Below, piece after piece: positions 10,341-36,812 of a DNA stretch of 64,000 nucleotides. The notes beneath the pieces were generated by a model, which worked only from the letters and a program-made list of their open reading frames with translations, searched no databases and had not been told where the DNA came from. A program made the translations under genes and the position numbers. Origin of the DNA: Verrucomicrobiota bacterium JB023 (GTDB taxonomy: Bacteria > Verrucomicrobiota > Verrucomicrobiia > Verrucomicrobiales > Akkermansiaceae); contig JAUTCR010000017.1 in the NCBI GenBank assembly GCA_030673895.1, positions 62,001 through 126,000 on the forward strand. The letters are read 5' to 3'. Numbering within the stretch: position 1 is the stretch's first letter; each line of letters begins with the position of its first letter.

Positions 10341-10934
10341 GTGCATAATTACCTGACCCGCCACACCCTTCTCCAGCGCGCCTGTGATCCCCGCGATGAA
10401 GGAGCTTGGGAAGAGTTTGTGGGTCACTACCGGCGCTTCATCTACTACATCCTTCATCAGGTCGGCATCGATAGCGATGATCGGGACGACGTCTGCCAAC
10501 AGATTCTGCTCATCCTGACCCGCGACCTCGGCTCCTACGATCGATCCCGTTCCAAGTTCCGCACCTGGCTCAGTACGGTGATTCGCAATGCCGCCTTCAC
10601 CCACCTCAGGAGCCGCAAGCGCTACCAGATCCGCATTGAGACCCTGGGCAGGCAGGTCCACTTCGACGATCCCGGTGACGGACCGTCCGAGCTGGACCAG
10701 GTGATCGAGATGGAGTGGGCGAATTACGTCTCCAGCCTGGCGATGGAGCGAGTCCGATCCGTCTTCCAAGGGCAAGCGATCGAGGTCTTCGAGATGAGCT
10801 TGGACGAGTTGCCTCCAGACGAGATTGCGCGGCGCTCGAATCTCACCGTCTCCTCCGTCTACACTCTGCGCAAGCGGGTGAAGAAGCGCCTCTACCTGGA
10901 GATACGGGCCCTCACCAAGGAGCTTGAGCCATGA
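10341..10934 (+). CDS. ECF-type RNA polymerase sigma factor
   Basis: 197 residues from a GTG start. Sigma region 2 is seen around DVCQQILLILTRDLGSYD and the FRTWLSTVIRNAA block; region 4 is the helix-turn-helix LPPDEIARRSNLTVSSVY. No zinc-finger anti-sigma gene follows. Instead the last four bases (ATGA) overlap the start of a Ser/Thr kinase gene. This layout resembles ECF sigma factors controlled by phosphorylation through a linked kinase (the ECF43/PknT-type arrangement). Its target promoters are unknown; the nearby exported genes are candidates by position only. Confidence 0.92.
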   Translation: MHNYLTRHTLLQRACDPRDEGAWEEFVGHYRRFIYYILHQVGIDSDDRDDVCQQILLILTRDLGSYDRSRSKFRTWLSTVIRNAAFTHLRSRKRYQIRIETLGRQVHFDDPGDGPSELDQVIEMEWANYVSSLAMERVRSVFQGQAIEVFEMSLDELPPDEIARRSNLTVSSVYTLRKRVKKRLYLEIRALTKELEP

Positions 10935-12892
10935 AGGAGGCCGCGCCCTACACCCCGGACCGCCGCTTGGGCCAAGCCTATCATGAGGCCAACCACCTCA
11001 ATGAGGAAGGCCTCGCCGCGATCTGCCCCTCATACATCGAGCTGGCCGAGACCGACCTGCGCTATCGTGAGCATTCCCTCATCGGGCAAGGCTCGCTCAA
11101 GAATGTCTGGAAGTGCTGGGACTGCCGCGCCCACCGCTGGGTGGCCATGGCCCGGCTACGCGAGGACCGGGGTCCGGAATTCTACGACCTCTTCGTCAAT
11201 GAAGCCTGGGTGAGCTCATCGCTCACTCATCCCAATATCATCAAGGTCCATGACGTCGGGCTCACCAGCCAAGGGCAGCCCTTCTTCACCATGGACCTCA
11301 AGGGAGAGGGAACCTTGGCCGACCTCATTCAGCAACCCGAGCGCGACCTCCGACGCCTCCTCGGCATCTTCCTCAAGGTCTGCGACGCCATCGCCTACGC
11401 GCATGAGAAGGGCGTCCTCCACCTCGATCTGAAGCCCGAGAACATCCAGGCCGAGCGCTTCGGCGAGGTGATCGTCTGCGACTGGGGACTGGCTAAACTT
11501 CTCGACGATCCCGATCCCGATAGCGACGACTTCCCCTTCCCCGACCAAGTGGAATCCATTGGTAACGTCACCTTGTTCGGCGAGATCAAGGGAACGCCCG
11601 GCTACATGGCTCCCGAGCAAATCCTCCCCGGCCGTCAAAAAGACGAGCGCACCGATGTCTTCGCGCTCGGCTGCCTCCTCCATGCCATTCTAACAGGTGA
11701 ACCACCCTTCAGCGGAGTGGGTCACGAGCAAGGTCTGGCCCCCGTGCCCGGCACGCCCTGCGACCGGGACGCCAAGCGGACGACGTCACCCCATCTACCC
11801 GAAAGCCTGAACGCCGTCTATCGCAAGGCCTGCCGACCCCAGCCAGAGGAGCGCTACCCCTCGGTGCTCGCGCTGGCCAAGGAGGTGGAGAAGTATCTTC
11901 ACGGCTTCGCCACCGAGGCGGAAGAGCCACACTTCCTGCGCGCGCTTTCTCTCTTCCTGCGGCGGCATCGTCTCCCCGCGACCATCACCTTGGTCGCCCT
12001 CATCGCCCTGACCACCTTCGCCGCTCTCTCCTTACAACACATCAATGCGGAACGCACGCGGGCAGACTCCCTCGCCTCCAAGGTGGAGACCTATGGCCAA
12101 TCCGAGAAACATCAATCCCAGCAACTCGCCTCCGCCGCAGGCACCTTGAAGAATCTCGGCGTCTTCCGCACCCCGGCCCGCAGTATCTCCGAGGCACGCG
12201 ACCTCGCCGCTCTCGCTCTAACGCTCGATCCGGGCAACGAGTTCGCCCGCCACCAGCTGTTCTCTATCTCGCTCATCCAGCTCGACTTCCAATCAGCCCT
12301 CGCCTATGCCCCCGGCCCCGAGCATCCCTACTCGGATTACTTGGCCCTCGCGGAAGCCTTCCCCCACTACTCCTACAACTCCGCGCACCGGCCAAGCCCC
12401 GCAGAGCTCGCCTCCTTCATCCGCCAGGCCCGCCTCATTACCCCCCACCGGGGTCCCCTGATGGAGCGCATCCTCTCGTATGACTTCTCCCTCCGCAGCC
12501 ATCGCGATCCAGAGCCCGTCCTCGCCCTCATTGAGTATCTGAATGGTGGCTCCGAACAATGCCGCACGACCTATCAAGACCGAACCTTGACGATCGAGAG
12601 CAAGGGAGATCTCCACCTGAGACTCGCCCCGGGATCAGGCTCGGGAGATTGCATCCTCAAGTACCTCGCAGTGAGGGATCTTCGCCTCTCTGTCGCTGGT
12701 TGCTTCAATGTCACCCAGCTTTCCCGCCTTCCCCTCAAGACTCTGGACTTGTCGCAATGCCCGAACTTGCGCCTCCGCCGACCGGTCGTGCTCCCATTGC
12801 TTAAATCTATGAAGATCCCTCCCCAGCCCATCTCGACGAAGGAATGGAAATACGGAGTGCATACTCTCGATCGCTGGCATCTGACCATTTGA
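10931..12892 (+). CDS. Membrane-bound atypical Ser/Thr protein kinase
   Basis: 653 residues: cytosolic kinase domain (about 48-325), one transmembrane helix (about 350-372, ATITLVALIALTTFAALSL), then an external or periplasmic region ending in a leucine-rich stretch (LKTLDLSQCPNLRLR). The kinase has a Gly loop (GQGSLKNV), the alpha-C Glu91, HLDLKPEN with catalytic Asp166, DWG with Asp184, and APE. The VAIK lysine position reads Ala74 (VAMARL) and HRD reads HLD, so catalysis may be altered, perhaps with Arg75 as a substitute. It overlaps the ECF sigma gene by 4 bases, making that sigma the obvious partner or substrate. Active kinase or pseudokinase is undecided. Confidence 0.88.
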   Translation: MKEAAPYTPDRRLGQAYHEANHLNEEGLAAICPSYIELAETDLRYREHSLIGQGSLKNVWKCWDCRAHRWVAMARLREDRGPEFYDLFVNEAWVSSSLTHPNIIKVHDVGLTSQGQPFFTMDLKGEGTLADLIQQPERDLRRLLGIFLKVCDAIAYAHEKGVLHLDLKPENIQAERFGEVIVCDWGLAKLLDDPDPDSDDFPFPDQVESIGNVTLFGEIKGTPGYMAPEQILPGRQKDERTDVFALGCLLHAILTGEPPFSGVGHEQGLAPVPGTPCDRDAKRTTSPHLPESLNAVYRKACRPQPEERYPSVLALAKEVEKYLHGFATEAEEPHFLRALSLFLRRHRLPATITLVALIALTTFAALSLQHINAERTRADSLASKVETYGQSEKHQSQQLASAAGTLKNLGVFRTPARSISEARDLAALALTLDPGNEFARHQLFSISLIQLDFQSALAYAPGPEHPYSDYLALAEAFPHYSYNSAHRPSPAELASFIRQARLITPHRGPLMERILSYDFSLRSHRDPEPVLALIEYLNGGSEQCRTTYQDRTLTIESKGDLHLRLAPGSGSGDCILKYLAVRDLRLSVAGCFNVTQLSRLPLKTLDLSQCPNLRLRRPVVLPLLKSMKIPPQPISTKEWKYGVHTLDRWHLTI

Positions 12893-13021: not shown

Positions 13022-13708
13022 ATGTCCCGAACCGCACTAACCACATTCGCCGCCTCACTTCTCGCCCCCGCTGCCCTGACCGCCGCGACCATTCATGTCG
13101 ACTTCGGTCGAGCAGACAACCAGGCCACGGGGAACTACAACTCTGTCACCGGTCCGGGTGGGACCACCTTGTCCACGCCCTCCGTCCCCTTAATCGACGA
13201 TACCGGAGCGAGCACCGGCATCACCTTGAATACCGACTTCAGCAACGGCGGTTCCTGGGCCGGAACCGGCGCTGATTACTATACCGGACCCTATGTCGGC
13301 AGTCTTGCGGGAATTGACGAAGCCGCCTTGATTGACTCCCTTTTCATTCGGAGCCCCGCTTTCGTCACCATCACGCTAGTCGGCTTGGATACCGAGACAT
13401 CCTACGGCCTCGTCCTCTACGGAGCACGGGGTAACAATGCCGGAGACTTCACCACATATTCCATCACTGACGGGGCAGGCACCACAGAACTTCAGCTGAA
13501 TGCCCTGAACAATATCACCGCCGTTGAGGCCTCCGGCCTGGTCGCTGATGGAAACGGCGAGATCACCCTGGTGATGACGACCACCTCCTCGGGTACGAAC
13601 GGCGCTCTCAACTATCTGGGAATCACCACCACCCCCATCCCGGAGCCTTCGGCCATGGCCCTCTTCCTTCTCTCCGGTCTCGGACTCCTCAATCGCAAAC
13701 GTTCTTGA
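13022..13708 (+). CDS. PEP-CTERM exported protein with GARGNN module
   Basis: 228 residues: signal peptide (1 to about 21, TAATI), one beta-rich module (about 24-202), and a PEP-CTERM tail (IPEPSAMALFLLSGLG then basic NRKRS). PEP-CTERM tails are recognised by exosortase (EpsH/XrtA-type) and linked to surface or exopolysaccharide export; no exosortase is in this window. The module carries DFGR, GTGADYYTGPY and LYGARGNN, and recurs in the next two genes. It is 18 bases upstream of the calcium-repeat gene, so co-transcription is likely. The module's ligand is unknown; a carbohydrate-binding-like fold would fit but is inference. Confidence 0.88.
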   Translation: MSRTALTTFAASLLAPAALTAATIHVDFGRADNQATGNYNSVTGPGGTTLSTPSVPLIDDTGASTGITLNTDFSNGGSWAGTGADYYTGPYVGSLAGIDEAALIDSLFIRSPAFVTITLVGLDTETSYGLVLYGARGNNAGDFTTYSITDGAGTTELQLNALNNITAVEASGLVADGNGEITLVMTTTSSGTNGALNYLGITTTPIPEPSAMALFLLSGLGLLNRKRS

Positions 13709-13726
13709 AACCTATCGCCATCGATT

Positions 13727-15916
13727 ATGAAGAGTTCGAAATTGGCAATAGGATGCCTCCTCTTGGCCTCGCCCTCCCTGCTTGCCCAGACGGTTCTGGT
13801 CGACTTTGGCCGAAGCGACCCGGGTCAACCGACCCCTGACACGGGGTGGAATAATATCACGGCCGAAGTCGGCAATCTCTCCTCGAACACAACCGAGATT
13901 CTCGACCTCGTTGATGAGACGGGCGACCCCACTGGCTACTCGCTTACGATGAGCTACGTCGCCGGAGCCTCCGGGGCGGGTGCGGGTGCAGACTACTCCG
14001 GCCCTTACCCGGCCTCGGTGGCCAGCTATCCGGCGAGCGCTATCTCGGATGGCTTCTTCATCAATGTCACCGGCTCGATCACCATGAGCATTGGCAATCT
14101 CGATCCGACCCTGCTCTACGATGTGAGGATGTATGGAGCCCGGGGTAACAATGGCACCGAGGTCGCTGTCTCCAGTGAGAGCGGAAGCGGAACCACGGAG
14201 ACGACTATCCCGGATACCTTCGTCAATGCCACCGACGTCGCCGAGCTAATCGCGCTGACTCCCACCGCGGAAGGCACCATTGAGGTCACCATGCGCTGCG
14301 CCACCGGCACGGGTGGCGCGCTCAATGTCCTCATCGTGGAAGCCTATTCCACCCCCGATGATGACGAAGATGGCATGCCCAATTCCTACGAGATCGCCAA
14401 TGGCACGAATCCCAACCTCGATGACGCCAATGAGGACTTCGACGAAGATGGCCTGACCAACCTTCAGGAATACCTGGGGCTCAATTCCTCCGATGAGACG
14501 ACAGGTTTCGGGCAAACCGATTCAGGAAATGCCGATACCGATCAGGATGGACTCGATGACGGCGATGAGGTCAGTGGAGCCCTCAATCCCTGGGATATCA
14601 ATGGCTTCCCCGTCACCGCGCCCGGTGCTCCAACCAATCCCAACGACAGCGACAGTGACAACGACAGCCTGAACGACTTTGAGGAGCTGGATGCCAGCAA
14701 TGGATCCGTCACCGACCCTAACTGGCATGATACCGACCAGGACGGAATGAGCGACTACTACGAGGCCAGTAACGACCTCGATCCCACGAGCGCCCTCGGA
14801 GATGATGGCGGCAATGGTGATCCGGATGAGGACGATCTATCCAACTTCGAGGAATCATTGATTGGAACCGACCCCAAGGATGAGGATAGTGATGACGACA
14901 CCCTCAGCGACGGCGATGAAGAGCTGTTCCATGGGACCAGCCCTCTGTTGACCGATACCGATGGTGATCTCCTGGACGACGCCTTCGAAGTCAGCGGCAC
15001 GACCGACCCCCTCTCCATCGACACGGATGATGACCGCTTCACCGACTATGCGGAGATCGAAGCAGGGTCCGACGGCAACGACGCGAACTCGTTACCCACC
15101 TTCCCCTCAATCGCATGGTCTGCAGTCGAGTTCAACTCCACTTCCGCCATCTCAAATAGCGGGACCCTGCTCTATGCCGAGAACTATGCGGGGGAAGATG
15201 TGACCGTCAACGGTGTGACCTTCGCAGGGACCAACTCCTCAGCCACTGAGAGGAGTAGCCTGAAGGTTCAAACCTTCCTTAGCTCGGCATCGACCGTTGA
15301 TCTCTATGACGACGAGGTGTCTGAGATCGCTCCCCTGTTGGAGACCTTCTGGTGGGAGGCCGGTTCGACCATCGGGAATATCAGCCTCACTGGTCTGACT
15401 CCCGGTCAGACCTATCAGGTTCAACTTGGCCGGGCTGACGATCGAGACTCAATCAACATCATCAACCGCTACGCTCGCGTTGACAGTTATGGTGGGAATA
15501 CGGGGACGGGAGGCATTGGTGCGGACAACACCATCTTCGGAGGCCCCCTGAATCCCGCCCTCTTGTTCACTGGCACCTTCACCGCGACGTCTTCCGTTCA
15601 GGTCTTCAACACCGTTCAAGTCGACTCCAGCGATATCGTCACCGGCACCCAGCTCGCCTTTCTTCAGGTGCGCGAGGTTGTTCCCGTAAGTGAGCTCACA
15701 ATTACGGGCTTCTCGGTGACCGGAGCCACCGCGACCGTCAACGCCTCCGGCCTTGATGCTGCGAAGTCCTATCAGCTGATGCGCTCTGCCAATCTGCAAG
15801 ATACCCCCGAGGTGGTCGATGGGCCTCGCGTGGTGGGCGCTGCGAGCGGCACCTTCACCGATAGCACCGCCCCGCAGGGCAGTGCTGCCTTCTATTACCT
15901 CGAAGAGCTTCCCTGA
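13727..15916 (+). CDS. Exported calcium-repeat protein with GARGNN module
   Basis: 729 residues. Order: signal peptide (1-20, cleavage near LLAQ); the GARGNN module (about 23-206: VDFGRS, GADYSGPYP, MYGARGNNG); a run of thrombospondin type 3-like Asp-rich repeats (about 207-460, for example DDDEDGMPNSYE, DTDQDGLDDGDE, DTDGDLLDDAF) that should bind Ca2+; a further beta domain (about 460-650); and a short tail (about 655-729) of the form seen at the ends of other exported proteins here. There is no PEP-CTERM motif. Flanked by a PEP-CTERM protein and a sulfatase carrying the same module. Likely surface-exposed or secreted; function unknown. Confidence 0.88.
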   Translation: MKSSKLAIGCLLLASPSLLAQTVLVDFGRSDPGQPTPDTGWNNITAEVGNLSSNTTEILDLVDETGDPTGYSLTMSYVAGASGAGAGADYSGPYPASVASYPASAISDGFFINVTGSITMSIGNLDPTLLYDVRMYGARGNNGTEVAVSSESGSGTTETTIPDTFVNATDVAELIALTPTAEGTIEVTMRCATGTGGALNVLIVEAYSTPDDDEDGMPNSYEIANGTNPNLDDANEDFDEDGLTNLQEYLGLNSSDETTGFGQTDSGNADTDQDGLDDGDEVSGALNPWDINGFPVTAPGAPTNPNDSDSDNDSLNDFEELDASNGSVTDPNWHDTDQDGMSDYYEASNDLDPTSALGDDGGNGDPDEDDLSNFEESLIGTDPKDEDSDDDTLSDGDEELFHGTSPLLTDTDGDLLDDAFEVSGTTDPLSIDTDDDRFTDYAEIEAGSDGNDANSLPTFPSIAWSAVEFNSTSAISNSGTLLYAENYAGEDVTVNGVTFAGTNSSATERSSLKVQTFLSSASTVDLYDDEVSEIAPLLETFWWEAGSTIGNISLTGLTPGQTYQVQLGRADDRDSINIINRYARVDSYGGNTGTGGIGADNTIFGGPLNPALLFTGTFTATSSVQVFNTVQVDSSDIVTGTQLAFLQVREVVPVSELTITGFSVTGATATVNASGLDAAKSYQLMRSANLQDTPEVVDGPRVVGAASGTFTDSTAPQGSAAFYYLEELP

Positions 15917-15961
15917 GCCTTCTGTCTGGTCGCTCCCTTGGCGGACCCGATCATACCATAA

Positions 15962-15994
15962 TTCAAGGGAGTGGCCGGCGGTCACTCCCTTGAA
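15962..15994 (+). terminator. Perfect 12-bp hairpin before the sulfatase start
   Basis: TTCAAGGGAGTG pairs exactly with CACTCCCTTGAA around a 9-base loop, followed by CTTTTG. It begins 45 bases after the stop of the calcium-repeat gene and ends 10 bases before the chosen sulfatase ATG. It could terminate the upstream message or attenuate and limit sulfatase expression. The T tract is short. Confidence 0.55.
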
Positions 15995-16004
15995 CTTTTG
16001 CTGT

Positions 16005-18722
16005 ATGAAGCACGCACATGTTCTCCTTTCTCTCTCCGCGGAACTGGTTATGTCGCAAGGGGGTCCGCCCCGGCCCAATATCATCATGGCAATGGCCGAT
16101 GACATGGGCTGGGGTGACCCTTCTTGTTATAGCGAAGACGTTACTTTGCCTGACGGCAGCCCGCATCCCGACCAAGGCTGGATCCAGACACCGGTCATGG
16201 ACGAGATGGCCGCCAATGGGCTGCGCTTCACCAGATTTTACGCAGCCTCTGCCGTCTGCTCGCCCACCCGGGCCAGCTGCCTGACCGGGCGCAATCCCTT
16301 CCGCGTCGGTATCCCCTTCGCCAATGACGGGCGCCTCGGCTTTGATGAGACTCCTCTCTCCTCCATTCTCGCTGAAGCCGGCTATCGGTGTGGCCACTTT
16401 GGCAAGTGGCATCTCGGCTCTCTAACAACCTTGAGAGCCGACTCGAATCGAGGCGGCGATGCCAGCGTCTACTCCGCCCCCTGGCACCACGGCTACCACA
16501 CCTGCTTCGTCACCGAGTCCAAGGTGCCGACTTACCATCCTTACCGAGTCACGAACAACTCGAGTCCTCTTCCCACCTCCTTCGCCGACCCCAACTTCTA
16601 CGGCACCTACTACTGGCGCATGCCGGAGGACTGGAACTTCACCTCGGGTGAAGGAAGCATTGTGCCGGTCGATGAGGTCAATAACGCAAGCGATGGCGAT
16701 GACTCCAAGCTCATCGTCGAGCAAGCGCTCCCCTTCATTCGAGATGCGGCAGCTAATGACGACCCCTTCTTCCTCGTCCTCTGGTTTCACACTCCACACA
16801 AGCCTCTCGTCGATCCCGATGGCCTAACGAGCACAGACTCCAGCGACGCCCTCCATGATAGCATCGTCGATATGGATGCCGCGCTTGGGCTCCTGAGAAA
16901 CGAGCTAATTGACCTTGGCATTCGCGAGGACACCATGTTCTGGCTGACGAGTGACAATGGCCCGGAGAATGGCGACGACTCGCCAAACGAAATTTCCACC
17001 GCACGCTCGATTCGGTCAGGCCGCTTTCGCCAGCGCAAGCGCAGTCTCTACGAGGGTGGCCTCCGTGTGCCATCCATTCTCGAGTGGCCAGCCGCCATTC
17101 CGGCGGCGCGCGTCACCAGCTTCCCCGCCGTCACATCGGATTACTACCCCACTATCCTCGACTACCTGCAATTGACCGTGGCCGACCAGAAGCCTCTCGA
17201 TGGCATCTCCTTACGCCCGCTCATCGAGGGGAGCGCCAGCACCCGGAGCCAGCCCATCGGATTCAAGATTAACGCTCATCGCTCCTGGACCGCCCAACGT
17301 TACAAAATCATCGACGCGGGTGGTGGTTGGGAACTTTACGATCTACTCAACGTCCCAGAGGGAGAAGAGGTTGAGCAAAATCCTCTCGCTACTGCGGACA
17401 ACATCCGCGACCAGAGCGAAGCCACCCAAGCCATCTATCAGGAGATGTTAGACGGCTTCAACACCTGGGAACACAGCCTGTCCGGAGACAGTCCGCATGC
17501 CAGCCCGGCCCGCCCGTCAGTCAGCCTCAGCGCTCCCGGGGCCGACCTCGGGGACTTCGTGGAAATCTCGGTCGAATTCGATGAGCCGGTGACCCAGCTT
17601 CATGGACATGAGTTCCAGCTGACCGGCGCCAGCTTGATCCATTTCGTAGGCCAGGGCACTTCCTACACCCTCACGGTCCTAGCCTGCGAAAGCGAACAAG
17701 TCATCATCACCTTACCCGAAGGGGCAGCCATTGATAGTGATGGCAATCCCAATCTCGCGCCTCCGCCTCTCGTTCTCGGGGAGGCCCCTCCGACAGAAAG
17801 CCGTCCCATCTCTGTCGCCATCGATATCGGCCACAGCACCCAGCTCACCGAGGGACCTTGGAACAACTTCTCCGCCAACACTTCTGGCTCTCCTCTCGAC
17901 ATCGATGACCTCGCGACCGTGGACGGGCAGAGCAGTGGCATTTCCCTGCGATACGCTAAATCAGGCACTGCCAATATTGGAGGAACAGGAGCCAACTACG
18001 ACGGCCCTTATCCCGACGAGTTGGGCGATCTTCCCAGCTCTGCGCTTCGCGACGGATTCTTTATCCAGGACGGGTCGTCCATCACGCTGACCCTTGCCGG
18101 ATTGGAATCGAACTACCCGGTGGACCTTGTTCTTTACGGTGCCCGTGGTAATAACGGCTCCCCTCTCCAAGTCACTATCGTAGGTGAAACTTCAGTCTCT
18201 CTGAGTCTCGACCCAATTCATCTCAATGAGACTACGGTGCTGACCCCATCCGGCATCATCCCAAGTCCGGCAGGGGAGATCCGCCTCATCCTCGAGTCCG
18301 AAGGACCTTCCTCCGCCGCGCTCAACTACCTCGGCCTGGAAACATCAATCACCGTCGAAACAAGTCCTGACGACGCCCCCATTCTCCCCCATCAGGACTG
18401 TGATGGCGACGGCTCCACAAACCTCGCCGAGTATATCGCCGGCACCGATCCGAAAGATAGGAGCTCGTTTTTCCAAGTCACTATCGATGGGGTTGCGGAC
18501 GATAGCGCAACCCTTGCCTGGATGAGCCTGTTAGGGAGAGACTACACCGTCCAGTGGTCTGAAGATGCCCTCGCATGGACTGACCTCTCCACGGTCACGG
18601 GAAGTGCGGGGGAACAAGCTTTTGAAATCGACCGAACAAGTCTGCAGGAGCTAACTAACGGACCTACTGATGTGGCCAATCTTCTCTTCAGAGTTCAAGC
18701 CACCCTATCAACCAACGAGTGA
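16005..18722 (+). CDS. Formylglycine-dependent sulfatase with C-terminal GARGNN module
   Basis: 905 residues from the ATG at 16005; the open frame reaches back to 15819 but would overlap the upstream gene and run through the hairpin. Type I sulfatase features: NIIMAMADDMGWGD at the N-terminus (metal site), CSPTR with Cys85 as the residue oxidised to formylglycine, GHFGKWHLG, and LTSDNGPE. The catalytic part ends near residue 500. A GARGNN module follows (about 604-780: WNNF, GANYDGPYP, LYGARGNNG), then a DCDGDGSTNLAEYIAG calcium-type repeat and a short C-terminal beta tail. The N-terminal signal is weak but export is likely. No sulfatase-maturing enzyme is nearby. Substrate, probably a sulfated polysaccharide, is inferred. 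Confidence 0.9.
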   Translation: MKHAHVLLSLSAELVMSQGGPPRPNIIMAMADDMGWGDPSCYSEDVTLPDGSPHPDQGWIQTPVMDEMAANGLRFTRFYAASAVCSPTRASCLTGRNPFRVGIPFANDGRLGFDETPLSSILAEAGYRCGHFGKWHLGSLTTLRADSNRGGDASVYSAPWHHGYHTCFVTESKVPTYHPYRVTNNSSPLPTSFADPNFYGTYYWRMPEDWNFTSGEGSIVPVDEVNNASDGDDSKLIVEQALPFIRDAAANDDPFFLVLWFHTPHKPLVDPDGLTSTDSSDALHDSIVDMDAALGLLRNELIDLGIREDTMFWLTSDNGPENGDDSPNEISTARSIRSGRFRQRKRSLYEGGLRVPSILEWPAAIPAARVTSFPAVTSDYYPTILDYLQLTVADQKPLDGISLRPLIEGSASTRSQPIGFKINAHRSWTAQRYKIIDAGGGWELYDLLNVPEGEEVEQNPLATADNIRDQSEATQAIYQEMLDGFNTWEHSLSGDSPHASPARPSVSLSAPGADLGDFVEISVEFDEPVTQLHGHEFQLTGASLIHFVGQGTSYTLTVLACESEQVIITLPEGAAIDSDGNPNLAPPPLVLGEAPPTESRPISVAIDIGHSTQLTEGPWNNFSANTSGSPLDIDDLATVDGQSSGISLRYAKSGTANIGGTGANYDGPYPDELGDLPSSALRDGFFIQDGSSITLTLAGLESNYPVDLVLYGARGNNGSPLQVTIVGETSVSLSLDPIHLNETTVLTPSGIIPSPAGEIRLILESEGPSSAALNYLGLETSITVETSPDDAPILPHQDCDGDGSTNLAEYIAGTDPKDRSSFFQVTIDGVADDSATLAWMSLLGRDYTVQWSEDALAWTDLSTVTGSAGEQAFEIDRTSLQELTNGPTDVANLLFRVQATLSTNE

Positions 18723-35453: not shown

Positions 35454-36206
35454 CTATTGCGCAACCACGCGATAGAAGGCCCTCACCGGTGGCGGCGAGG
35501 GGTCCGTAAAGAGGTGCGAGACGCCTCCCGTAAAGGCTTGGCCCACCGGCACTGCAGTTGATTCCGGGCTTTCTCCCCGGAAGAGCTGATAGGTCGCAGC
35601 GGGGGTCAACTGGTCAACTTGAATCTGCACCTGAGTTCGGAGATGCGAGATTGCGACCACCCTCGGTCTCGCTGCCGGGGCCTCCGACTCCACGAGGCGG
35701 AAGGCGCTTTCCTCTCCGCCTCTCCATAGCAGATCACCATCGGCGAGGTTCAGATCGGCACCCAACACAGCGAACGATTCAGGATTCCGGAGCAGCCAAT
35801 CGTCATTGGCCGCCGTCACGACATTGCTTTCCTGACCCCCACTGCTGAAAAAGCGGATGCCCAGTCGGCGAGGATACTCATTAGGAGCGATCAAACCCGC
35901 CTCCTCCTTGGAGGCGAGGCTTTCAGCGAATGAAAATTGACCGCTTTGCTGGGTGGGCTCCCCTGTTTGGTCGATGATCCCGATTTCATTCGGCTCGATT
36001 GCGGAAATCGGGGTGAAGTCCGCCCACTCGCCCGCCGAATCTGGAACGGCATCGCTGGCGAAGTAGCCAATCTCATAATGGCCTGTCGCCGCAGTGCCAT
36101 CACTCGCCATGATCGGCGTCACCGAGCTGCCGGCGATCTGCAGATCGGCGTGCGCACTCAACCAACTCAACAAAAGAAGGAGCCAGCAGGTGGAGACTCG
36201 ATTCAT
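35454..36206 (-). CDS. Exported protein, paralogue of the adjacent PEP-CTERM protein
   Basis: 250 residues with a signal peptide (CWLLLLLSWLSAHA, to about 20). Residues about 21-170 are clearly homologous to the neighbour at 36231-36812: both have IAGSS, a GYF motif, a PRRLGIRFF block and a DWL motif. Here the last 75 residues are a beta tail (TYQLFRGESPES to HLFTDPSPPPVRAFYRVV) instead of a PEP-CTERM motif. The pair looks like a tandem duplication, 24 bases apart, probably one operon with the TIGR02597-like gene. Location periplasm or surface; function unknown. Confidence 0.82.
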   Translation of the reverse strand: MNRVSTCWLLLLLSWLSAHADLQIAGSSVTPIMASDGTAATGHYEIGYFASDAVPDSAGEWADFTPISAIEPNEIGIIDQTGEPTQQSGQFSFAESLASKEEAGLIAPNEYPRRLGIRFFSSGGQESNVVTAANDDWLLRNPESFAVLGADLNLADGDLLWRGGEESAFRLVESEAPAARPRVVAISHLRTQVQIQVDQLTPAATYQLFRGESPESTAVPVGQAFTGGVSHLFTDPSPPPVRAFYRVVAQ

Positions 36207-36230
36207 GACGGCCCGAAAGTTGACCTGGGT

Positions 36231-36812
36231 CTAGGCTCGGCGGCGCCGACCGATCCATCCGCACCCCATCGCTAGGAACAGCCAGGTCGACGGCTCTGGT
36301 ACCGCCGTGAAGGGCGATGAGGAAAATTCCCAGACGAGATCCTCGTCCTGCAGGCTGAGTACTGAGCCTGTCGGAGCGAAACCCTCGGGATCATTCACCA
36401 GCCAATCGCTGTTGTAAGCACTCACCGTGTTCCATTGCGTCCCGCTGGAATTGAAGAAACGGATGCCGAGGCGGCGGGGGTAGTCGGACGCCTCGGTGAG
36501 CCCGATCTGCTCGCGCTCCGAGACATCGTAGGAGAAGGCGAATTGGCCATCCTGAGGCGTTTTTGACCCTGATTGCGCGATGGTCCCCAGCTCCATGCTA
36601 TCAAAGCCAGCCAAAGGCTCGAACGTCGCCCAGCCCGTTCGGGAGTCGGGAGCCTCACTGCTTTCGAAGTAGCCCACGAGGTAGCTCGAGGCTGATTCCC
36701 CTGAGGTGAGCACGATGGGTTGGGTCGAGCTCCCGGCAATCGTGATGGACGATTGCGCACCAAGGGGAGCGGTTGCCGCGATGAGTGGGAGAAGGACCAG
36801 CTGTTTTCTCAT
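36231..36812 (-). CDS. PEP-CTERM exported protein, paralogue of next gene
   Basis: 193 residues: signal peptide (to about 20, APLGAQ), a single domain of about 145 residues shared with the downstream gene (SSITIAGSSTQPI, LVGYFESS, SDYPRRLGIRFFNSSG), and a PEP-CTERM tail VPEPSTWLFLAMGCGWIG followed by RRRRA. It lies 21 bases after the TIGR02597-like gene and 24 bases before its paralogue, so the three are likely one message. The shared domain is unknown to me. The PEP-CTERM tail predicts exosortase processing. Confidence 0.87.
   Translation of the reverse strand: MRKQLVLLPLIAATAPLGAQSSITIAGSSTQPIVLTSGESASSYLVGYFESSEAPDSRTGWATFEPLAGFDSMELGTIAQSGSKTPQDGQFAFSYDVSEREQIGLTEASDYPRRLGIRFFNSSGTQWNTVSAYNSDWLVNDPEGFAPTGSVLSLQDEDLVWEFSSSPFTAVPEPSTWLFLAMGCGWIGRRRRA

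Follow-up and report, generated by a model that had tools for sequence, protein, structure and literature searches.

An unnamed module shared by a PEP-CTERM protein, a calcium-repeat protein and a sulfatase in a Verrucomicrobiota bacterium

How Verrucomicrobiota retain a substrate, and the enzymes that act upon it, at the cell surface without the SusC/SusD of the Bacteroidota type is, to our knowledge, poorly known. The window analysed here, a stretch of 64,000 nucleotides from Verrucomicrobiota bacterium JB023, raises this question at a single locus, where three adjacent exported genes encode a PEP-CTERM protein (Gene 1), a protein with TSP3-type calcium repeats (Gene 2) and a sulfatase (Gene 3), each carrying a single copy of a module that is about 185 residues long (Table 1). 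What could an anchored protein, a calcium-repeat protein and an enzyme have in common, such that the same module would serve all three? Marine members of the phylum are important consumers of sulfated algal polysaccharides with high sulfatase content and expression, as described in a study that makes no mention of PEP-CTERM (PMC8857213).

Table 1. Features of the module-encoding block (positions are those of the window).
Feature	Position	Strand	Evidence or remark
Large exported protein, prepilin-like N-terminus, 1162 aa	6822..10310	+	Heads the block that is conserved in G275
ECF-type sigma-70 factor	10341..10934	+	TIGR02937, 2e-17
Ser/Thr protein kinase, apparent transmembrane segment and C-terminal region	10931..12892	+	PF00069, 1.3e-34
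Gene 1: signal peptide, one module, PEP-CTERM anchor; 228 aa	13022..13708	+
Module copy 1 (PEP-CTERM protein)	13082..13639	+	HMM envelope; AlphaFold2 pLDDT 90.3, pTM 0.89
PEP-CTERM sorting signal of Gene 1	13634..13702	+	TIGR02595, 22.6 bits (cut-off 16)
Gene 2: signal peptide, module, TSP3 repeats, second unnamed domain; 729 aa	13727..15916	+
Module copy 2 (TSP3 protein)	13784..14353	+	HMM envelope; E 1.6e-79 to the module HMM, itself built partly from copy 2
TSP3-type calcium-repeat region	14357..15091	+	DxDxDG repeats; PF18884 below cut-off
Domain J2 of the TSP3 protein, unnamed and C-terminal	15107..15676	+
Perfect 15-bp inverted repeat between TSP3 gene and sulfatase, just upstream of the sulfatase start	15962..15994	+
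Gene 3: S1-type sulfatase, Big_12 Ig-like domain, module, one weak TSP3 repeat	16005..18722	+	PF00884, 1e-36
Sulfatase active-site motif CSPTR (formylglycine consensus CxPxR)	16257..16271	+	Residues 147-151 of the 967-aa frame
Module copy 3 (sulfatase)	17811..18353	+	HMM envelope; AlphaFold2 of Big_12 plus module, pLDDT 86.6

One module in three adjacent exported proteins

The three copies are 33-37% identical in pairwise comparisons, and their local pairwise scores are 236-250, whereas 500 shuffles gave 41-47 on average and 64-83 at most (z 25-29). This bears out the preliminary description, in which three neighbouring exported genes were said to share one module, and the coordinates proposed there agree with our HMM envelopes within about 15 bases. 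The module had also been called unnamed, and rightly so: it is covered by no Pfam or NCBIfam model in scans of the window proteins; no PHROG or PDB family match spans it, the PHROGs giving weak single matches only; and a literature search, with subscription papers outside its reach, found no paper on it. A Pfam scan of 86 module members likewise gave scattered weak matches, and the families listed included no Pfam CBM. The fn3 model was matched in 10 of these 86 members (best E 0.0026), and identity with FN3 was rejected, given that the PDB sequence matches are local and limited to the L.GL.P...Y strand pair. GARGNN, in turn, proposed as the hallmark of the module, held for a subfamily of 11 copies, which form a single tree branch (SH-aLRT 88) with the variants YNARGAG in two copies, YGARALN in one and YTARGNN in one; it does not extend to the wider superfamily, where the equivalent loop mostly reads SR....R.T.Y.V. 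The most constant positions of the module include the D of DFG, the N of WNN, L102 and Y108.

Gene 1 ends in a PEP motif, a hydrophobic helix and a basic cluster, as is characteristic of PEP-CTERM proteins, and besides its TIGR02595 match it scores 19.5 against PF07589, slightly below the cut-off of 20.7. Together with the two exosortase homologs of this genome (PF09721, above cut-off), these features liken Gene 1 to exosortase substrates. However, the PEP-CTERM proteins described together with exopolysaccharide are mostly encoded in single-gene operons (Haft et al., 2006, PMC1569441), whereas Gene 1 lies inside a multi-gene block. In Gene 2, the idea that domain J2 is another copy of the module found no support (hhalign probability 11); the domain recurs in G275, G323 and G306, where TSP3 proteins next to the kinase carry it even when their N-terminal module differs. 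The inverted repeat between Gene 2 and Gene 3 may be an attenuator or a regulator site. The open frame of Gene 3 begins at 15819 and encodes 967 aa, and we placed the start at about 16005, where a Met is followed by a short signal-like stretch; among the solved relatives of this enzyme are arylsulfatase A, S1_15, S1_16 and GalNAc-6-sulfatases.

Upstream, the sigma factor gene starts 30 bp after the gene for the 1162-aa protein and overlaps the kinase gene by 4 bp. The 1162-aa protein, which presumably resembles the Verru_Chthon cassette proteins of a TIGRFAM family, has no Pfam family and no NCBIfam match at E 0.01, to the cassette protein model or any other. It has paralogs at 8 more sites of the genome; several are matched in part, and several adjoin a gene of about 230 aa. 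Elsewhere in the window (35457-36812), a 193-aa PEP-CTERM protein and the adjoining 250-aa unanchored protein are 46% identical over 131 residues, in a module of a different kind.

Predicted fold of the module and a phage homologue

Fold prediction, suggested in the preliminary description, yielded a confident model of copy 1 from an 86-row alignment (Table 1), namely, a single all-beta domain that we read as a beta-sandwich. Copy 3, modelled apart with the preceding Ig-like Big_12 domain, reached comparable confidence with a strand order similar to that of copy 1; the fold search with this two-domain model gave alignments spread over both domains, which are hard to read. When the module model was compared with solved structures using Foldseek, the top match was a porphyran-binding CBM (8xmz), followed by CBM35, 36, 61, 16 and 4 and an alginate-binding CBM. 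Other beta-sandwiches matched are, as far as known, not glycan binders, namely, APC10/Doc1 and a clostridial toxin binding component. The TM scores to solved CBMs are just 0.4-0.5, approximately (among the best of these matches, TMq is about 0.31-0.41 and TMt reaches 0.54, where about 0.5 or more on query length would indicate the same fold), and therefore, on present evidence, we assign the module to no known CBM family.

The likeness to the beta-sandwich CBMs of the CBM6/35/36/61 type, 8xmz included, lies in modularity, in fusion to glycan-active enzymes, in being a beta-sandwich by prediction and in the best solved matches. The differences, however, go beyond these TM scores. First, no CBM sequence model matches the module (Pfam over 86 members, NCBIfam), nor does any PDB chain by sequence, other than the local FN3-like matches. 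Second, the module has 185 residues, compared with roughly 120-150 for these CBMs. Third, it also forms stand-alone anchored proteins.

Foldseek matches to viral models include, at TM 0.69, an unnamed protein of 448 residues and, at TM 0.74, one of 903 residues from Vibrio phage Kuja. Independently, the module profile matched the genome of Kuja at one place only, the C-terminal end of a frame that likewise has 903 residues and lies in the tail region (E 4.5e-4). The C-terminal domain of this tail-region protein (Vibrio phage Kuja_1840, L115:44292-47003) appears to be homologous to the module; tblastn of the module against phages gave no match. From comparisons of sequence and predicted structure, such a homologue would fit a receptor-binding role for the module.

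Spread, partners and genomic position of the module family

The search of Verrucomicrobiota by HMM proposed in the preliminary description was run with a first profile built from five module copies, which matched 35 of 289 genomes of the phylum (12%) and 34 of the 195 genomes of the family. The module did not prove to be a known ubiquitous domain with an assigned role, the outcome that would have refuted the preliminary description: it is widespread in the phylum but has no assigned role. Iterating the search enlarged the superfamily to at least 88 module domains in 72 proteins, with gene boundaries in the relatives drawn by a simple open-frame picker instead of a trained gene finder. Many genomes have just one detected copy, and several tandem arrays were found.

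Fusions to sulfatases occur in JB023 itself (C17, to which the window belongs, C10 and C47) and also in G275 (two sulfatases), G369 and G418. At C33 of JB023, the module is joined to an alginate lyase with three CBM6, and Pfam scans identified further fusions to SGNH/GDSL and alpha/beta esterases and to a metallophosphatase. Most of the identified partners thus act on polysaccharides or esters. Some members of about 720 aa lie in biosynthetic-looking clusters, next to what looks by eye like an MBOAT gene; and since some of the fused enzymes are phosphatases or esterases and some members belong to such clusters, the ligands must vary.

The genome of JB023 has further copies (C10, with the second sulfatase, C63, C70, C64, C33 and C47). 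Seven of its eight module loci are within 6 kb of a sulfatase, a limit fixed after the distances were known, whereas no more than 12.2% of the genome lies that near to one (binomial 3e-6); of the five loci without a fused sulfatase, four are within this distance (1e-3). This genome encodes 55 sulfatases above cut-off and approximately 48 PEP-CTERM proteins; of the latter, four out of five with the module are near a sulfatase, compared with 6 of the 43 others (Fisher 0.005). At C70 (39.7-60.7 kb), a PEP-CTERM protein with the module is found within an array of about ten sulfatases, a situation listed likewise for L152, and C47 has two PEP-CTERM module proteins and a double-module sulfatase, which one of them directly precedes.

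These positions bear on the idea that the module is a stalk, that is, a stable beta-sandwich spacer without a ligand, shared within the cluster by local duplication. The domains that accompany it, namely, Big_12, PKD, Ig-like and TSP3, are themselves of the stalk kind, and the tandem arrays and the frequent close duplication of modules within one locus would be in order. However, a spacer would not be expected to prefer sulfatase loci so strongly, nor to conserve polar residues in its presumed loops (DFG, WNN and the R of GARGNN/SR). Moreover, in most PEP-CTERM members the module is the only domain, and there is therefore nothing to space. We consider a stalk role improbable.

A different ligand, namely, the cell's own exopolysaccharide, would turn the module into a means of retaining enzymes and structural proteins in a sheath or biofilm matrix. 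It was with exopolysaccharide that PEP-CTERM proteins were first associated (Haft et al., 2006, PMC1569441), and one clade, made up of 8 module proteins from as many genomes, has members whose loci resemble polysaccharide-biosynthesis clusters. In JB023, however, the module is tied to sulfatases, alginate lyase and CBM6, which speak of degradation, and such self-recognition seems to us very improbable.

The proteins that carry the module are divided between anchors and enzymes. A PEP-CTERM end is present in 23 of 27 small complete module proteins and in none of 35 large ones (Fisher 3e-13, with the boundary of 350 residues picked by eye and with related proteins, which are not independent, counted separately). 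Of the four small proteins without PEP-CTERM, two have a comparable VPE tail whose end is basic. In the tree, these types are intermingled: the module of the TSP3 protein of the window pairs with a sulfatase module of G275 (SH-aLRT 93), the module of the window sulfatase pairs with that of the C10 sulfatase of the same genome (SH-aLRT 83), and the PEP-CTERM and TSP3 modules of G275 are sisters. With this moderate support (93 and 83), modules seem to have been exchanged or converted between anchored, TSP3 and sulfatase genes, and this suggests that they are interchangeable.

Conserved sigma-kinase loci and a model for surface capture

Gene order in G275 is that of the window, namely, the prepilin-like protein, the sigma factor, the kinase, the PEP-CTERM module protein, the TSP3 module protein and the module sulfatase, the last being fused in G275 to TSP3 repeats and a second sulfatase as well. 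Among the relatives the exact trio was found in G275 only. At an independent locus in G418, the sigma-kinase pair is followed by two PEP-CTERM proteins, one TSP3 protein and two sulfatases, with nine modules together. The C-terminus of the kinase was matched in 12 of 190 family genomes, and a sulfatase, in one case a weak match, is close by in 10 of the 14 sigma-kinase or kinase loci inspected, those of the window and G275 included; we give this as a count, without a statistical test, because the background depends on the genome. Two of the remaining four loci are on short contigs. In G323 (L126:4524-10613), where a TSP3 protein and a sulfatase follow the sigma-kinase pair, these two proteins have another region of 350 residues in common, at 57% identity.

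Modules of other kinds are shared in a similar manner. At L135, a PEP-CTERM protein and its neighbouring sulfatase have in common a module unrelated to the GARGNN type, and at L136 and L133 a PEP-CTERM protein and a large unanchored neighbour share a module of another family. Sharing with a neighbour as a rule for all PEP-CTERM proteins was rejected, since an adjacent unanchored partner was found for 3 of 48 in JB023.

Such sharing, as if it mattered in itself, could point to homotypic docking, in which modules bind each other and the PEP-CTERM anchor gathers the TSP3 protein and the sulfatase into a cellulosome-like complex. Docking would agree with the strictness with which anchored proteins of one module and unanchored enzymes are kept apart, and with the high similarity of copies within one locus (74% in G376, 45-50% in G418 and 56% in G275). 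Recent duplication, however, also predicts the latter; many genomes have a single detected copy; and the phage homologs fit receptor binding. Cohesin and dockerin, likewise, provide a non-covalent recognition system common to an anchor protein and enzymes, but here one type of module is on both sides, and no dockerin or cohesin family was matched. Overall, we regard docking as unlikely. More broadly, and still doubtfully, Verrucomicrobiota sulfatase loci might be built on a locus-specific matching module, common to a PEP-CTERM anchor and its adjoining enzymes, of the GARGNN type here and unrelated elsewhere, which would give rise to surface-assembled degradation complexes without lipoproteins or cohesin/dockerin.

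Of the two roles offered in the preliminary description, a common ligand and a self-assembling surface complex, the former is the better supported, by partners that act on polysaccharides or esters, by the CBM-like fold and by the apparent exchange of modules in the tree. We thus favour, as reasonably likely, a new CBM-like family that serves as the shared recognition part of the receptor and the enzymes of one sulfated-glycan locus. Because relatives repeat the arrangement of anchor and enzyme, the module probably allows both to bind one and the same sulfated sugar polymer. Exosortase would fix the PEP-CTERM protein to the surface, where it would display one module as a receptor, and the TSP3 protein and the sulfatase would bear the same recognition module unanchored; at the cell surface, capture and desulfation would therefore act on a common glycan. 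The cluster may be turned on by the sigma factor and the transmembrane kinase that are encoded upstream of it.

By its proposed function, namely, that of an anchored glycan-binding protein encoded with enzymes and a regulator, Gene 1 is reminiscent of the SusD-like proteins of Bacteroidota PULs. However, no protein of the cluster matched SusC or SusD models, the anchor is a PEP-CTERM whereas SusD is a lipoprotein, and here receptor and enzyme share a homologous module. A module common to a PEP-CTERM protein and sulfatases offers a direct, testable answer as to how substrate and enzymes may be held at the verrucomicrobial surface; it would also give one class of PEP-CTERM proteins a function and could serve as a marker in the annotation of proteins that are at present unnamed.
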